Of a stretch of 64,000 nt of DNA, positions 36,501 through 43,233 are shown piece after piece; positions within the stretch are counted from its first letter, which is position 1; the number at the start of each line of letters is the position of its first letter. The notes below the pieces were generated by a model. It was not told the origin of the DNA, ran no database searches, and saw only the letters and a program-made list of their open reading frames with translations. Source of the DNA: Stenotrophomonas sp. 169 (GTDB taxonomy: Bacteria > Pseudomonadota > Gammaproteobacteria > Xanthomonadales > Xanthomonadaceae); contig NZ_CP061204.1 in assembly GCF_014621775.1 (NCBI RefSeq), forward strand, positions 3,120,501 through 3,184,500. Reading direction: 5' to 3'. A program made the position numbers and the translations under genes.

Positions 36501-37385
36501 ATGATCCGACGCTCTTCCCCGTTCTTCGCGCCCGTCCGCCTGACCGCCCTGCTGCTGGTCCTGGTGATCGCCGCCACCGGCTGCAACCGCGGCACCAAGG
36601 GCGATAACCCTGATGATGGCCTGCCGGTCGAGACGTTGTACCAGAAGGGCCACGGCCTGATGGAAGGCGGCAACTGGAGCGGCGCCGAGGCCAGCTTCCG
36701 CCGCCTGGTGGCCCAGTATCCGTACGGCCCCTATACCGAGCAGGCGATGATCGAAACCGCCTACGCCCAGTACAAGGCCGGCAAGAACGATGACGCGGTT
36801 TCCAGCGTCGATCGCTTCATCCGGACCTACCCGACCCACCGCAACGTGTCGTATCTCTACTACCTGCGTGGCTTGGCCAACAGTAATCGCGATACGGTTT
36901 TCCTCCGCCGCGTATGGTCGCTCGACGCAAGTCGCCGCGATCTGTCCACGCCGCGTCAGGCTTTTGCGGACTTCAACATCGTCGTTGACCGCTATCCGAA
37001 CAGCCGCTACGCCGCAGATGCGCGCAAGCGCATGATCGACCTGCGCGACGTATTCGCCCAGCACGAGTTGGACAATGCGCTGTACTACCTGCGTCGCGAG
37101 GCGTGGCTGTCGGCCGCAGGCCGTGCCACCTATCTGCTGGAGACCTATCCGCAGAGTGCCTACCAGTACGACGCGGTGGCAGTGCTGGCAGATGCCTACA
37201 CCCACGCAGGCAACAAGGTCCTGGCCGACGACGCCCGTCGCGTGCTGGAGCTGAACGCTCCGGACCATCCGTGGCTGAAGAACGAGTGGCCGGACTACCC
37301 GTGGATGGTCCGCAAGCTCAACCCGTTCGCGGGTGAGAAGTCGGCCACCACCGGCCAGCGCAATGCGACGATGAACCGCAAGTAG
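36501..37385 (+). CDS. bamD: Outer-membrane assembly lipoprotein BamD
   Basis: This 294-residue lipoprotein is an essential part of the BAM complex, which folds barrel proteins into the outer membrane. It has a signal sequence with lipobox AATGC (C28), followed by about five TPR units: LYQKGHGLMEGGNWSGAEASF, then TEQAMIETAYAQYKAGKNDDA, and so on. FNIVVDRYPNSRYAADARKRM is a typical BamD segment. The ATG at 36501 gives the shortest good lipoprotein signal; the long upstream extension of the frame overlaps rluD antisense and is not coding. A strong intrinsic terminator follows. Confidence 0.96.
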   Translation: MIRRSSPFFAPVRLTALLLVLVIAATGCNRGTKGDNPDDGLPVETLYQKGHGLMEGGNWSGAEASFRRLVAQYPYGPYTEQAMIETAYAQYKAGKNDDAVSSVDRFIRTYPTHRNVSYLYYLRGLANSNRDTVFLRRVWSLDASRRDLSTPRQAFADFNIVVDRYPNSRYAADARKRMIDLRDVFAQHELDNALYYLRREAWLSAAGRATYLLETYPQSAYQYDAVAVLADAYTHAGNKVLADDARRVLELNAPDHPWLKNEWPDYPWMVRKLNPFAGEKSATTGQRNATMNRK

Positions 37386-37460: not shown

Positions 37461-38405
37461 TCAGCCCAGACCGTGCTTCCGATTCAGAAAGTGCGCCAGT
37501 TCCTGCAGCACGCGCGTGACCTGCTTGTCGGAAAGGTCCGCATTACGCTCCCCCTCTTGCGCTGGACGCGGCCATGCTTCGTCCAGCCACCGGCCGATCT
37601 GCACACGGCAGGTCGTATCCATGTGCCGAGGGTGCAACCGGTACAGGTGCTCACGCTGATCCAACAACGCGGCGTGGATCAACCTGCCCTGTACGCCCAC
37701 TGGCTCCAACGGATCTTCCACGCTCATGTCGCCTTCAAAAAGCGCACGCAGGTCATCAGCGGTATACGCCGCCGAAGGTGCCGGAGCATCGACACCTCGC
37801 AGTTGCACGATCACGCGTTCCAGCGCGCTCATCGCGTTCAGATAGGTGTCGGATTGCCGGGTATCCCGCAGCAGATGCCGACGCGCCGGCATACAGTCGA
37901 CCCGTATTTCCTCAGCCGCCACCGCGCACGCACCTGCAGAATCCCGCTGAACGCTTCGCTCGATCACACTGACGCAGCCGGGGATGCCGCCATCGGCGCA
38001 CGCCGCGGCGGCAGCAGCCGTCAGACAGTGTGCGACAACAAAAGAAGGCTCGTGCGAACCCGCACCGAGTTCGCTGATGCACGCTGCCAGTGCGGGCTGC
38101 AGTGACGTGTACAAGACGGCAGGATCGGAACCGACGGCGTCCAAGTGCAGGGGCTGTACGCCGCCCTCTGCCCTGCTCCCACGCGTCAGCGCTGCGACGA
38201 CGATGGGCCACCACGTCGCCGCATTGTGCAGCAGGCGACCCGGCGCCAGCACATCCAATGCGCCCATCACCGCCCTACCCAGCGGCGCTACCGTATTGCT
38301 TACCCCGCGCAGCGCCGCGCCGAACTGCAGTAACCCAGGTGATCGCGCATCCTCGGGCACCCGCCGTACGACGCAAGCGCCCGGACAGGTTGTCGAGAGG
38401 ATCAT
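37461..38405 (-). CDS. Paralog A of the four-gene Cys4 family, unknown function
   Basis: This protein of about 314 residues is last in the array. N-terminal block: AVMGALDVLAPGRLLHNA (47-64) then a hydrophobic stretch (65-73). Cys module: C109-x17-C127-x8-C136-x7-C144. C-terminal helix: LSDKQVTRVLQELAHFLNRK. The same landmarks occur in the next two genes upstream, B and D. The chosen ATG (38403-38405) lies 19 bp after the B stop with GGTG nearby; a further in-frame ATG at 38462 would overlap B. I cannot assign a family or function. The evenly spaced cysteines and hydrophobic N-terminal segment suggest a disulfide-bonded domain outside the cytoplasm, but no clean signal peptide is seen. Confidence 0.8.
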   Translation of the reverse strand: MILSTTCPGACVVRRVPEDARSPGLLQFGAALRGVSNTVAPLGRAVMGALDVLAPGRLLHNAATWWPIVVAALTRGSRAEGGVQPLHLDAVGSDPAVLYTSLQPALAACISELGAGSHEPSFVVAHCLTAAAAAACADGGIPGCVSVIERSVQRDSAGACAVAAEEIRVDCMPARRHLLRDTRQSDTYLNAMSALERVIVQLRGVDAPAPSAAYTADDLRALFEGDMSVEDPLEPVGVQGRLIHAALLDQREHLYRLHPRHMDTTCRVQIGRWLDEAWPRPAQEGERNADLSDKQVTRVLQELAHFLNRKHGLG

Positions 38406-38424
38406 TCCTGCACCTGGCGGCCGC

Positions 38425-39543
38425 TCACGACGCGGTCCCTGCTGCAGCGGCATGGCGCTCATTGAGCCGTTGTGCGAGCTCGGCCAGCACGAACCTCAGC
38501 TGGCCCTTCGTGATGGGCACCACACTATCCACCGGATACCGCCGATCCAACCCGTTTTCAATAACCCCGAGCGCGGAGTCATCCAAACGCTGCGGCTGCA
38601 GCTGATAGGCCTGCGCAGCCAGCCGATGAACCACTGAGCGCAGCTGCAGACCGGCTTGGCTGCAAGCACCACGCAACGCCTCTCGGTGGGCAGACTGCTC
38701 CACCAGCGCGTACAGGTCCTCGCCGGTGCAGGGCCGTCTCAGCTGCGTAAACGCCTCGCCCAGCGACTTCCTCAGCGCGTGGCGAAGCCCGTCCAGCGCC
38801 TTGTGGTAGACGGGATCTGCAGCAGCTTTTGGATACAGTTCGTCGAAGAGTGTCCGCGCATCTTCATCCTCCTGTCCCGCCTCTTCATCGCCTGCCACAG
38901 CCGGCTGCAGGGTCTGTACCGTGCGGTCGACTACGTCCAGACACGCGCCATCGCCTGATTCGCCGCACATCGCCATCGCCTCGGCAACAAGGCAGTGCGC
39001 CATGACATGGCTGTCGCGCTCGGCCTTGCCCGTTTCCACTGCATCGCCGAGCTTTTTCATGCACGCCTGCAGCGCGGGCAGCACGGTCTGTTCGAACATC
39101 GTCTCCAGCGCAGTTGGGCGCGAGCCGCTGTCACGCTCCTGGTCCACTGCAAAAGCGGGATCTTCGTCAAGGTGAAGAAACTCGGCACCTGCGCCCCGCC
39201 AGCCCGTGCTGCGCAGTGAATCAAGACGGTCCCAATGCGGATGTCCAGCGATATCCGGACTGAAGGGAGGTGGGATGTGTCTGGTCAAGCCGCGCCCCTG
39301 TGCGCTGCCTACAGCGGCCAGACCGACGCCAATCGTGAACCATCGCGCCGCGTTATCCAGCACGCGCCGGGGGGCCATCAGATCGAGCGCGCCCAGCGTC
39401 GCCCTTGCCACCCCGGCGGTGACGTTGCCGACCCAATCTGGCACGAATCGCTGTTGCCCACGTAACGGTGTTGATCCATGATCGCGCCCTCCCCGCGCCA
39501 TGGTGCAGGGGACGGCGAGCGCGGGAGCTGCTGGAATTTCCAT
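38425..39543 (-). CDS. Paralog B of the four-gene Cys4 family, unknown function
   Basis: At 372 residues this is the longest member. N-terminal block: ATLGALDLMAPRRVLDNAAR (48-67) followed by the hydrophobic WFTIGVGLAAVGSA (68-81). A specific insert (about 85-150) precedes the Cys module C161-x22-C184-x8-C193-x7-C201, where the first spacer is five residues longer than in its paralogs. An acidic linker follows (DEEAGQEDEDAR). It ends ITKGQLRFVLAELAQRLNER plus a short tail. The start ATG at 39541-39543 has AAGGA eight bases upstream. The function is unknown. It is 56 bp after C and 19 bp before A on the same strand. Confidence 0.82.
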   Translation of the reverse strand: MEIPAAPALAVPCTMARGGRDHGSTPLRGQQRFVPDWVGNVTAGVARATLGALDLMAPRRVLDNAARWFTIGVGLAAVGSAQGRGLTRHIPPPFSPDIAGHPHWDRLDSLRSTGWRGAGAEFLHLDEDPAFAVDQERDSGSRPTALETMFEQTVLPALQACMKKLGDAVETGKAERDSHVMAHCLVAEAMAMCGESGDGACLDVVDRTVQTLQPAVAGDEEAGQEDEDARTLFDELYPKAAADPVYHKALDGLRHALRKSLGEAFTQLRRPCTGEDLYALVEQSAHREALRGACSQAGLQLRSVVHRLAAQAYQLQPQRLDDSALGVIENGLDRRYPVDSVVPITKGQLRFVLAELAQRLNERHAAAAGTAS

Positions 39544-39599
39544 GTCGATGTCCTTCTTTCAAGTGATGATGAATCCGCCTCAGCGTCCTGCCGCTGTCG

Positions 39600-40454
39600 T
39601 CAGTGTCGGTTCAACCAAGCGGCCAACAAGCCGGTGACGTGATCGCGCTGAAGGTCACTGATCGCTCTTCCATCCGCCTGCGGCAGCGAAAGGTTGAGCC
39701 ACTCGTCCAGTTCCGGACCCAGCGCGGTGGCGTAATGTTCAGGGCGAGCGTCGATCAGGTGATGGCCGGTGCGCTGCAACAGGGGATACAGCGCTGCCCC
39801 TGCAGCACGCAGTGCCCAGTCAAACCGCTGCATGGCACGGCTGCCGATCGGCTCGACCCTGTCAAGCTCCCGCACCCGGCCCAGCAGATCACTGCCCGCC
39901 ACACCCAGCGGCAAGCGAGCTGGATCGGACTCGATCAGATCGAAATAGGCCGATTCCAGCCTCAGCAGAATCTGCTGATACTCGTAGGTGTTCCGCGCTT
40001 TGCGCTGGATCACGTCCTGCAGGTCGGGCAGCGTACGAGCCACCGCGATGTGGAGAGGCCCCGGCGCCTGGCGGTGTACACGCTGCTCCAGCGCACGCTT
40101 GGCGTGTCGGCCGAGAGCGCGCAGGCACCAGGGATCGTCCCCCGCTTCACAGGCCGCTACGGCCTGCTCCTGCAGACACAACGCCTCGGCACGGGCATCG
40201 GGTAGGCCGTGCGCCTGGCGCCGTTGCAGGCAGCCATGCAGCTGCCTGTCATCATCCCGCAACGGCAGGGCACTCCGGCCCGATCTGTCGCCGGCGTTGG
40301 CCGGCACCTGCCAGTGACGACCTTGGTTGCAGATGTCGGAAAGGGGGAGTTCCATCAGCGAGCGCGTGTGCTGGTCGCCCTGCACTGAAGGGCGGCCCTG
40401 CGCTGCAGCAGCCGCCCCTCCCAGCATCGTTAAAATACCCTCGTAAACCCTCAT
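39600..40454 (-). CDS. Paralog C of the four-gene Cys4 family, N-terminally shortened
   Basis: This 284-residue member lacks the GALDxxAPxRVL block of A, B and D. It starts directly at what looks like the hydrophobic end of that leader (GILTMLGGAAAAAQGRP, compare VGLAAVGSAQGRG in B). The Cys module is intact: C75-x17-C93-x8-C102-x7-C110. Later shared landmarks are EYQQILLRLESAY and the C-terminal DHVTGLLAAWLNRH. The ATG at 40452-40454 is preceded by AGGAGGTG, one of the best ribosome-binding sites in the window, so the short N-terminus is probably genuine. The first 20 residues could act as a signal peptide. The function is unknown. Confidence 0.8.
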   Translation of the reverse strand: MRVYEGILTMLGGAAAAAQGRPSVQGDQHTRSLMELPLSDICNQGRHWQVPANAGDRSGRSALPLRDDDRQLHGCLQRRQAHGLPDARAEALCLQEQAVAACEAGDDPWCLRALGRHAKRALEQRVHRQAPGPLHIAVARTLPDLQDVIQRKARNTYEYQQILLRLESAYFDLIESDPARLPLGVAGSDLLGRVRELDRVEPIGSRAMQRFDWALRAAGAALYPLLQRTGHHLIDARPEHYATALGPELDEWLNLSLPQADGRAISDLQRDHVTGLLAAWLNRH

Positions 40455-40528
40455 CTGCGGCACCTCCTATGTCGATTCCCCACCGGTAGTGCGGGAGCAG
40501 GCGTAACACCGAGCACCTTGCCTGGGCA

Positions 40529-41491
40529 TCAACTGACAGGACGCCTTGGGTCGCGGTGATTGAGCCAGAATGCAAGATCGCCCAACACCTGCTTCGCCTG
40601 CTCACGCGTCATTTTCGCCTGCCCCGCCTGCGGGTACCGGAGAGCGACGTCCTGCAGGAATTCCGCATGCCATTGTTCGTCCACCAGCTCGGGACGCTGG
40701 ATGTACACCTGCTCGCCTGCCTCAGCCCGAGCGCGCCCCAGCTGCACGGCCGGCGCCACGGCCTCGCTCCAGAAGGGCTCGCCTTGCAGCGGATTGCCGA
40801 TGAGTAGCTGCACCTCGTCGGCGGTATAGCGAACGGTGGTATCGGTCAGATCACGTCGGGTCTGCCTGCCCAGCGCCGTCTCCAGTACCAACATCGCGGT
40901 GCGATACTCGTCTGAATCCACAAAGTGCTTTCGCGTTTCCTGTTTTGCCTTCTGCGATGCTTGGCGCGCTGTGAGCTGCCCATCACGGAACAGCTCGTTG
41001 CTTCCCACCTCCAATTCAGCCCGACGGTTATCGGTTGCGCTGTTCACCGCCTGCTGCATTCCCCTGTTCAACGTCCTTGCCGCTGCGTCCACGCAGCCGG
41101 GATCCGTCCCCTGCGCGCAGATACGCAGCAGAGACTCCGTCAGGCATTGGGCTGCGTACCGCTCCGCGGGAAGCGGGCCAGCGCCGGTTCCCCCCAGGCA
41201 CGTGCGCAGTTCAGCAGCATCGAGATCAAAAAGATAATTGGCCTCGCTCTGATAACCGCCGCCATGGCGGAGCGGGCTGGCCGCTACATTGCTGATCGCC
41301 GACAACGCCAGTGCGCCAGGCAGCACGCGCCGAAGCCCACGCAGCACGCGGTTGGGCGCCAGTTCGTCCAGCACGGTCAGGGCCGCAACGCCGACGTGGC
41401 GTATCGCGTTGGCAACGCCGGAGACAGCACGCGCGCTGTGCCCGGCAAGGGAAAACGAGGGCGGCGGGGTGGAGCAGATGGAAAGGGGCAT
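40529..41491 (-). CDS. Paralog D of the four-gene Cys4 family, unknown function
   Basis: This 320-residue protein is first in transcription order. N-terminal block: VAALTVLDELAPNRVLRGLR (35-54) then a hydrophobic stretch (57-70). Cys module: C98-x17-C116-x8-C125-x7-C133. The middle is charged and helical (QASQKAKQETRKHF), followed by EYRTAMLVLETALG and the C-terminal helix MTREQAKQVLGDLAFWLNHR. The ATG at 41489-41491 has no clear ribosome-binding site, and no later Met suits the N-terminal block. It is 74 bp ahead of C and 107 bp after nadE on the same strand, so it may belong to the nadE transcript or have its own promoter. Confidence 0.8.
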   Translation of the reverse strand: MPLSICSTPPPSFSLAGHSARAVSGVANAIRHVGVAALTVLDELAPNRVLRGLRRVLPGALALSAISNVAASPLRHGGGYQSEANYLFDLDAAELRTCLGGTGAGPLPAERYAAQCLTESLLRICAQGTDPGCVDAAARTLNRGMQQAVNSATDNRRAELEVGSNELFRDGQLTARQASQKAKQETRKHFVDSDEYRTAMLVLETALGRQTRRDLTDTTVRYTADEVQLLIGNPLQGEPFWSEAVAPAVQLGRARAEAGEQVYIQRPELVDEQWHAEFLQDVALRYPQAGQAKMTREQAKQVLGDLAFWLNHRDPRRPVS

Positions 41492-41598: not shown

Positions 41599-43233
41599 TC
41601 AGCCGGTATAGCCGTTGGTGATCGGGTAGCGACGCTCGCGTCCGAACGCGCGTCGCGACACCTTCGGTCCCGGCGCGGCCTGATGGCGCTTCCACTCGCT
41701 GATGCGCACCAAGCGCAGCACCCGGTCCACGACCTCGGTGGCGTAGCCGGCCGCGATGATCTCTTCGCGTGACTGTTCCTGGTCCACGAACCGGTACAGG
41801 ATGCCATCGAGCACGTCGTACGCCGGCAACGAGTCCTGATCGGTCTGGTTGTCGCGCAGCTCAGCCGATGGCGGCCGGCTGATCACCGCAGGCGGAATGA
41901 CCGGCGCGCCCCCCACGGTGTTGCGCCACTTCGCCAAGCCGAACACTTCTGTCTTGTACAGGTCTTTCAACGGCGCGTAGCCACCGCACATGTCGCCGTA
42001 GATGGTCGCGTAGCCGACGGCATACTCGCTCTTGTTGCCCGTGGTGAGCAGCAGCCCGCCGAACTTGTTCGCCAGCGCCATCAGGATCACCCCGCGGCTG
42101 CGGCTCTGCAGGTTCTCTTCGGTGATGTCGGGCGTGGTGCCTTCGAACATCGGCGCCAACGCCTCCATCAGGCCCTTGAACGCCGGCTCGATCGACACCT
42201 GCTCCAGCTTCACGCCCAGCGCCTCGCATTGCTCGGCGGCCAGGTCATTGGACAGCCCTGCGGTGTAGCGCGATGGCAGCCGAACGGCCGTGACATTCTC
42301 TGCTCCCAGTGCATCCACGGCCATCGCCAGCACCAGCGCCGAATCAATGCCGCCGGACAGGCCCAGCCAGACTTTCTGGAAGCCGTTCTTGGCGCAGTAA
42401 TCCTGCAACCCACGGGTCACCGCGCGCCAAGCCAGCGCGTCCATGCTTTCATCGCCGTCGTCCATCCACAGCAGCGGCAGGAACCGGCGCTGCTCGCTCT
42501 CGTATTCCACGACCAGCCACTGCTCGGTGAACGCAGCGGCCGCCGGGTGGACCGTGCCATCGGCATCGGCCACCACCGAAGCGCCATCGAACACCAGCGC
42601 ATCCTGGCCGCCGACCACGTTGAGGTAGGCGATCGCCGCACCGCTTTCCCGCGTGCGCGCCGCCAGCACGGCATCGCGCTGCGCGTGCTTGCCGCGCTCG
42701 TAAGGTGAGGCATTGGGCACCACCACCAGCTGCGCCCCACTGCGCACGGTATCGGCCAGCGGTTCGGCGAACCACAGGTCTTCGCAGATCAGCACGCCCA
42801 CCGGCACGCCGTTGACCTCGAATACGCAGCTGGGGCCGTCCGGATCGATGTCGAAGTAGCGGCGCTCATCGAACACGGCGTAGTTGGGCAGCTCGCGCTT
42901 GCGGTACGTTTTTTCCACGATGCCATCGCGGAGCACGCTGGCGGCGTTGTACACCACCGGCCCGGCCGGCTGCGGCCAGCCCACCACCGCCGTGATGCCT
43001 TTGCACGATGCCGCGATGCGTTCCATCGCCTGCTCGCAGTGGCGCAGGAAGCCGGGGCGCAGCAACAGGTCTTCCGGTGGATAGCCACTGATGGCCAGTT
43101 CCGGGAACACCACCAGGTCGGCACCGTGGTCGTCGCGCGCCTGCTCGATCATTTCGATGATGCGATCGGTGTTGGCGGCGACCGCGCCGACCGGGAAATC
43201 AAACTGCGCCATCGCGATGCGGATCGAAGCCAT
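41599..43233 (-). CDS. nadE: Glutamine-dependent NAD+ synthase
   Basis: This 544-residue enzyme converts nicotinate adenine dinucleotide to NAD+ with glutamine as nitrogen donor. The N-terminal nitrilase-type glutaminase (1-255) has Glu in VFPELAISGYPPEDLL, Lys in KRELPNYAVFDERRYF, and Cys in GVLICEDLWF. The C-terminal synthetase (265-540) has the PP-loop LSGGIDSALVLAMAVDALG and the TTGNKSEYAVGYATIYGDM block. The length matches two-domain NadE. The protein is cytosolic. It is followed on the same strand by the four-gene paralog array. Confidence 0.96.
   Translation of the reverse strand: MASIRIAMAQFDFPVGAVAANTDRIIEMIEQARDDHGADLVVFPELAISGYPPEDLLLRPGFLRHCEQAMERIAASCKGITAVVGWPQPAGPVVYNAASVLRDGIVEKTYRKRELPNYAVFDERRYFDIDPDGPSCVFEVNGVPVGVLICEDLWFAEPLADTVRSGAQLVVVPNASPYERGKHAQRDAVLAARTRESGAAIAYLNVVGGQDALVFDGASVVADADGTVHPAAAAFTEQWLVVEYESEQRRFLPLLWMDDGDESMDALAWRAVTRGLQDYCAKNGFQKVWLGLSGGIDSALVLAMAVDALGAENVTAVRLPSRYTAGLSNDLAAEQCEALGVKLEQVSIEPAFKGLMEALAPMFEGTTPDITEENLQSRSRGVILMALANKFGGLLLTTGNKSEYAVGYATIYGDMCGGYAPLKDLYKTEVFGLAKWRNTVGGAPVIPPAVISRPPSAELRDNQTDQDSLPAYDVLDGILYRFVDQEQSREEIIAAGYATEVVDRVLRLVRISEWKRHQAAPGPKVSRRAFGRERRYPITNGYTG

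Follow-up and report, generated by a model that had tools for sequence, protein, structure and literature searches.

Tandem families of diverged paralogues are known in bacteria from at least two settings. Lineage-specific families of T3SS effectors combine tandem diverged copies, fast divergence and patchy presence in genomes that carry a T3SS, and tandem arrays of immunity proteins against interbacterial toxins combine diverged copies with conserved cysteines and a possible export signal. The four-gene array g1-g4 of Stenotrophomonas sp. 169 is like both of them; it differs from the former in the lack of a known effector domain, its members being candidates known from sequence alone, and from the latter in having neither a toxin gene nor an immunity-family match, and in the long polar stretch ahead of its hydrophobic block. 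T3SS effector kinases of the NleH/OspG type are connected with the array by position: a relative of these kinases occupies the same nadE-bamD interval in the T3SS-positive Stenotrophomonas genome G063, although g1-g4 themselves have no similarity to kinases or effectors in Pfam, NCBIfam or PDB.

A T3SS has been reported in Stenotrophomonas sp. 169, and reported absent from S. maltophilia RR-10 and K279a and from S. rhizophila DSM 14405, in the accessible sections of PMC8245107; within those sections, and in the accessible parts of other literature found, no substrates are named for the T3SS of environmental Stenotrophomonas. Neither the g1-g4 family, which has no name to search by, nor T3SS substrates in these species were found described in such parts of the literature as were available, including PMC11035887. 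We propose that g1-g4 may be a new lineage-restricted family of candidate T3SS substrates located at an effector site, and place the probability of this reading at about 0.42.

The array and its proteins

The array occupies positions 37461-41491 of the window, i.e. of the whole 64,000-nucleotide stretch of DNA that was analysed, and consists of four tandem minus-strand ORFs between nadE and bamD, numbered in transcription order. They correspond to genes D, C, B and A of an earlier note on this DNA, matched by gaps of 74, 56 and 19 bp, and its description of four consecutive minus-strand genes with these gaps, coding for 284-372 residues, agrees with the ORFs. The names nadE and bamD also come from that note and serve here as syntenic anchors.

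41599..43233, minus strand: nadE, upstream border of the variable site, on the same strand as g1-g4
40529..41491, minus strand: g1 (D in the earlier note), 320 aa; polar N-terminus, weak hydrophobic block at residues 56-74, four-Cys module, helical C-terminal domain
39600..40454, minus strand: g2 (C), 284 aa; four-Cys module, without the internal hydrophobic block
38425..39543, minus strand: g3 (B), 372 aa; layout as in the other members, with a longer linker
37461..38405, minus strand: g4 (A), 314 aa, counted from a start preceded by an RBS-like sequence
36501..37385, plus strand: bamD, downstream border of the variable site, on the strand opposite to g1-g4

The longest ORF of g4 starts at 38462 and would overlap g3 by 38 bp; by eye, RBS-like sequences precede the shorter starts of both g2 and g4. 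No shared promoter motif was found upstream of the genes, where the regions were likewise read by eye.

Judged by their alignments, g1-g4 are homologous beyond chance, because five of the six pairs yielded Smith-Waterman scores of 102-220 that were not reached by any of 300 shuffles (shuffle maxima 58-76), and because L008_2 from S. pennii matches all four of them in tblastn (E 9e-48, 1e-13, 1e-8 and 3e-5 for g2, g1, g3 and g4, respectively). The remaining pair, g2-g3, scored 53 and was matched or beaten by 8 of 300 shuffles. Searching the whole genome with g1 alone recovered the other three array genes (E 1e-9 and 1e-4, with g3 weak at 0.34) and no second locus. Four cysteines, at positions 98, 116, 125 and 133 of g1, are invariant in an alignment of 11 sequences, with the spacing C-x17-C-x8-C-x7-C, in which the first interval is longer in g3. 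The array proteins also have a Yxx(A/I)LxxL segment and a VLxxLAxxLNxR-like helix. Thus, the Cys module, the C-terminal helix and the common layout of diverged paralogs reported in the earlier note were all recovered, and its Yxx(A/I)LxxLE segment is there except for the final E, which is absent in g3. Two AlphaFold2 models (mean pLDDT 61 and 66) agree on an all-helical protein, in which the blocks of the C-terminal domain are mostly at pLDDT 80-97 and the N-terminal half is uncertain; with this uncertain half included, and with the C-terminal domain compared within whole models, there was no significant match to solved or viral structures.

None of the four proteins exceeded the curated cut-offs in Pfam or NCBIfam, the best sub-threshold Pfam row being DUF3151 for g3 (E=0.012 across 14 residues). 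PADLOC assigned no family to any of six proteins searched, and neither PHROGs nor PDB (the latter queried with g1 and the A6 profile) gave a convincing match. As regards kinases, there was no match to g1-g4 in Pfam at E<=1, or in PDB to g1 and the A6 profile. Membership in a known family was therefore rejected, in keeping with the earlier view that the array has no recognisable family and matches no described system, and, as far as sequence comparison can tell, g1-g4 is a lineage-specific family of no known kind in the libraries searched. A plasmid origin was also set aside, as tblastn with g1 in 72,556 plasmid records returned no match.

Distribution, divergence and a second family

The family of g1-g4, designated A2, was found in 4 of 91 Stenotrophomonas genomes (E below 1e-80), each time at nadE-bamD. 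There are four copies in the genome of the window, one clear member in each of S. pennii Sa5BUN4 (G070), S. chelatiphaga DSM 21508 (G029) and S. tumulicola JCM 30961 (G003), these single members being orthologues of g2, and none in the other 87, as would be expected from the lineage-specific family with variable copy number that the earlier note envisaged. In the bamD tree the four A2 genomes form one well-supported clade. Two weak rows within the genus (G103, E=0.014; G027, E=0.08) were set aside as chance, and in S. chelatiphaga one of 2081 segments, which scored no better than E=0.018, may be what is left of another A2 gene. The family-wide sample contained A2 in 2 of 395 genomes, both Stenotrophomonas, and in the class-wide sample of 369 genomes it was convincing in the window's genome only, a weak row in G619 (E=6.5e-4) falling in a 107-aa frame with an internal stop; since 5-6 candidates were scored per genome in these large surveys, diverged members may be missed. 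When A1, and afterwards A2, was used to query some 5.8 billion proteins, with scoring confined to the roughly 8000 candidates that had most words in common with the query, at least 7 and at least 5 matches, respectively, were returned, or at least 8 proteins in total. Three of eight database homologues, all annotated as "hypothetical protein", belong to Stenotrophomonas sp. WHRI 8082 and CFBP 13718, the strains in which g3 has its close homologues.

In other strains, g1 and g3 have homologues of mosaic appearance. Over residues 1-80, protein P0009 shares 97% identity with P0010, but over residues 81-200 it shares 95% with g1; P0006 shares 97-100% with P0008 over residues 1-80 and 100% with P0005 over residues 121-240. 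Chimeric assembly is possible for P0006, P0009 and P0010. Comparison with S. pennii places the divergence of g2, which is 36% identical to its orthologue, in a wider context. Identity reaches 96% for nadE, 98% for sucD, 96% for rluD and 90% for bamD; within the T3SS core it is 94% for SctR, 87% for SctV, 85% for SctJ, 78% for SctN and 77% for SctC; and it drops to 58% for the needle, 57% for translocator t20, 45% for t19, 42% for part of the tip and 33% for part of the T3SS-encoded t17. The divergence of g2 thus appears to resemble that of t17, the tip and the translocon proteins, unlike that of the T3SS core or of nadE, sucD, rluD and bamD. The genes g1, g3 and g4 are without an S. pennii orthologue, matching either a paralogue or nothing.

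A second family, A3, is represented by a gene beside A2 at nadE-bamD in S. pennii, S. chelatiphaga and S. tumulicola, on the opposite strand in the last of these. In the window's genome there is one solitary A3 gene, at 2.26 Mb, flanked by what look by eye like aat/infA- and clpA-like genes. Proteins of the A3 family have an N-terminus similar to that of A2 and a C-x17-C pair at a comparable position. Profile comparison (P=0.39 for the whole families, P=0.043 for the leaders) does not show common descent of A2 and A3, while a test anchored on the C-x17-C block gave p=0.0014, with an anchor picked post hoc and with g3, in which the spacing is longer, excluded; this block is suggestive of a relationship. 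Outside the genus, A3 had a match in G273 (E=8.6e-5), which was rejected because it is antisense to a 514-aa ORF that resembles a peptidase by eye, and three weak A3 rows within the genus (E 0.03-0.06) were taken as chance. A profile of the leader alone, run against 29 genomes, strongly matched only its seven source sequences, and its best other row (E=0.0017) contains an internal stop and comes from T3SS-negative G098.

The T3SS and the nadE-bamD site

The genome of the window does encode a T3SS, as do 13 of the other genomes surveyed in the genus (secretin over the family cut-off in 14 of 91). Its SctV match scores 787 bits, and the cluster, which we read as extending over about 4.058-4.082 Mb next to a glyS-like gene, has Pfam matches to SctJ, the needle, an IpaD-like tip, a SipB/SseC translocator, SctR, SctV and SctN. 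An IpaD-like tip and a SipB/SseC translocon resemble the systems used on animal cells, not the Hrp systems of plant pathogens. Secretin and SctV are intact in three of the four A2 genomes. The remaining one, that of S. chelatiphaga, keeps most of a truncated cluster, and its machine is probably dead, since SctV and secretin are largely deleted (what still matches is 59 of 694 residues in SctV and residues 1-121 of 679 in the secretin ORF) and SctN and SctR are partial. The A2 and A3 genes of this species are still open despite the damage.

Both borders of the site could be examined in 74 genomes (81 loci, i.e. 80 of the 88 other genomes with nadE plus the window, minus seven loci without bamD, four of which are short contig ends); the T3SS-positive G112 and G031 are for this reason outside the count. 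The distance from nadE to bamD varies from 56 to 4220 bp, and is longest in the window. In tblastn comparisons, the 62 T3SS-negative sites comprise 33 with a lipase-like gene and 20 under 350 bp with no match, in addition to three with a TonB receptor, one with IS3, one with an unrelated ORF (G008), one with A2/A3 (S. chelatiphaga) and three unassigned, the lipase and TonB receptor labels having been given from reading the sequences. The TonB receptor genes and insertion sequences at T3SS-negative sites show that the site also accepts unrelated genes. Among the 12 T3SS-positive sites, three contain A2/A3 and one, in G027, contains a lipase only; at the remaining eight there are small Pro-rich ORFs, another ORF or a match to a kinase, in one case together with a transposase. 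For the kinase of G063, the PDB match is NleH1 (E=1e-8) and the Pfam match is OspG_kinase, which stays below its cut-off (E=0.0022); partial kinase matches were found at the site in G002 and G073. Because T3SS-positive genomes had served to define the class of small Pro-rich ORFs, only sites that are neither empty nor lipase-only were counted: there are 11 of 12 such sites in T3SS-positive genomes vs 9 of 62 in T3SS-negative ones. On the tree, this association is reduced to 2-4 independent pairs (median p=1), none of them significant.

Candidate T3SS substrates and rival explanations

We favor the view that g1-g4 are T3SS substrates because of the T3SS itself, the effector-like kinase found at the same site elsewhere, the substrate-like divergence, the tandem copies and the restriction to a single clade; the solitary A3 gene with a similar leader elsewhere in the genome lends it further support. 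For g1-g4 we infer secretion, injection and a host target, as follows. The nadE-bamD interval would be an effector insertion site used by T3SS-bearing Stenotrophomonas; the polar, Pro/Ser/Thr-containing N-terminal stretch and the amphipathic leader would steer the unfolded protein through the chromosomal T3SS; a host target inside a eukaryotic cell, perhaps that of a protist, would be acted on by the helical C-terminal domain together with the four-Cys module; and divergence and allele mosaicism would be the outcome of an arms race. Counting against this proposal are the confinement of A2 to one clade, the loss of significance of the T3SS-site association on the tree, the unrelated genes that the site also takes, the lack of homology to described effectors and of a fold match, the missing leader in g2, the exception of G027, the A2 and A3 genes that stay open in S. 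chelatiphaga although its T3SS is damaged, the upstream regions in which no common motif was seen, and the leader profile that brought in no new candidates. Of the options raised in the earlier note, an effector role is the best supported, by the T3SS and the NleH/OspG-like kinase at the site; a defence role is without a PADLOC hit, and a toxin/immunity pair is without a toxin partner in the array. The broader version, in which A2 and A3 would make up an unnamed effector superfamily with a common C-x17-C module and leader and a C-terminal fold unmatched in PDB, injected into eukaryotic cells by the SipB/IpaD-like T3SS and gaining diversity through allele recombination and tandem duplication at a nadE-bamD site dedicated to effectors, we consider doubtful.

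The chief rival, and a serious one, is that g1-g4 are candidate Sec-exported periplasmic or envelope proteins with disulfides, for example an orphan immunity array against the toxins of rival bacteria, in which the hydrophobic block would serve as anchor or signal peptide and the copies would match different toxins. The four invariant cysteines fit disulfides in an oxidising compartment just as well, and tandem, diverged and rapidly diverging paralogues would fit immunity arrays too. The basic stretch, hydrophobic run and small residues of g1 and g3 look signal-peptide-like, and g2 and its orthologues start with a short hydrophobic N-terminus. However, about 50 mostly polar residues precede the block in g1, g3 and g4, unlike in an ordinary signal peptide, and in g2, as in two of its orthologues, the N-terminal hydrophobic run contains a charged E. 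The block, noted earlier as missing from gene C and indeed absent in g2, is present though weak, with a 19-residue Kyte-Doolittle maximum of 1.45 in g1 and 1.07 in g3, under the usual transmembrane threshold of 1.6, and in g4 the overall maximum falls in the Cys region. Moreover, the array contains no toxin gene, and no immunity family was matched in Pfam, NCBIfam or PHROGs. We regard Sec export as rather unlikely.

An origin of the T3SS link in an accident of shared ancestry, with g1-g4 being a lineage-specific family of some other function, be it in surface or adhesion variation, in phage defence or in metabolism, seems unlikely. It agrees with the presence of A2 in one clade only, with the dependence of the T3SS association on phylogeny and with the unrelated genes that the nadE-bamD site takes, but it gives no account of why an effector-like kinase occurs at this site or why g2 diverges as a substrate would, and PADLOC and PHROGs yielded no convincing match. 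It is highly improbable that g1-g4 are decaying or spurious ORFs and no functional family, as their third-position GC, below that of housekeeping genes (0.69-0.74 vs 0.82-0.86 in three neighbours of the T3SS), might hint, against long frames that can be aligned in frame, at 20-99% identity, across four genomes and with eight database proteins, and against invariant cysteines and RBS-like starts.

The genus Stenotrophomonas is usually viewed through its T3SS-free strains, and some environmental species carry a T3SS. If g1-g4 are indeed its substrates, they would provide a short list of testable effectors, and more could be found by inspecting the nadE-bamD position. S. chelatiphaga, with its damaged T3SS and retained candidates, would then represent a natural experiment in effector decay.

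Other occupants of the nadE-bamD site

The variable gap between nadE and bamD, which in the window is occupied by the paralogues g1-g4, contains a kinase-like ORF and small Pro-rich ORFs in other Stenotrophomonas genomes:

L069, 7880-9010, plus strand: kinase-like ORF of 376 aa (genome G063), with PDB matches
L066, L067, L069, L072 and L074: small Pro-rich ORFs of 80-129 aa, in T3SS-positive genomes

In the PDB search, the 376-aa ORF matched the effector kinases NleH1, NleH2 and OspG (E=1e-8), and partial kinase matches were likewise found at this site in G002 and G073. The small Pro-rich ORFs of L069 and L072 match each other at 39%, and carry RVxF-like motifs within or near them. In the T3SS-negative genome G008 (L030), the site is filled by an unrelated 402-aa ORF on the nadE strand.

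The T3SS cluster of S. chelatiphaga

The following cluster is damaged:

L130, 10606-19999, and L131: T3SS cluster of S. chelatiphaga (G029)

Here sctV and the secretin ORF are mostly lost, and sctN and sctR are partial, with the remainder of the cluster being kept.

Further candidate substrates in the window's genome

Two genes lie outside the array:

L092, 1154-2962, minus strand: protein of 602 aa, inside the T3SS cluster
L121, 8447-9355, plus strand: orphan member of the A3 family, at 2.26 Mb, with housekeeping genes on either side

The 602-aa protein, which yielded no match in the Pfam search, is 33-36% identical to its relatives and evolves as fast as the array gene g2; it is an additional candidate T3SS substrate. 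The orphan A3 gene is a candidate for the role proposed for g1-g4, that of a T3SS substrate.
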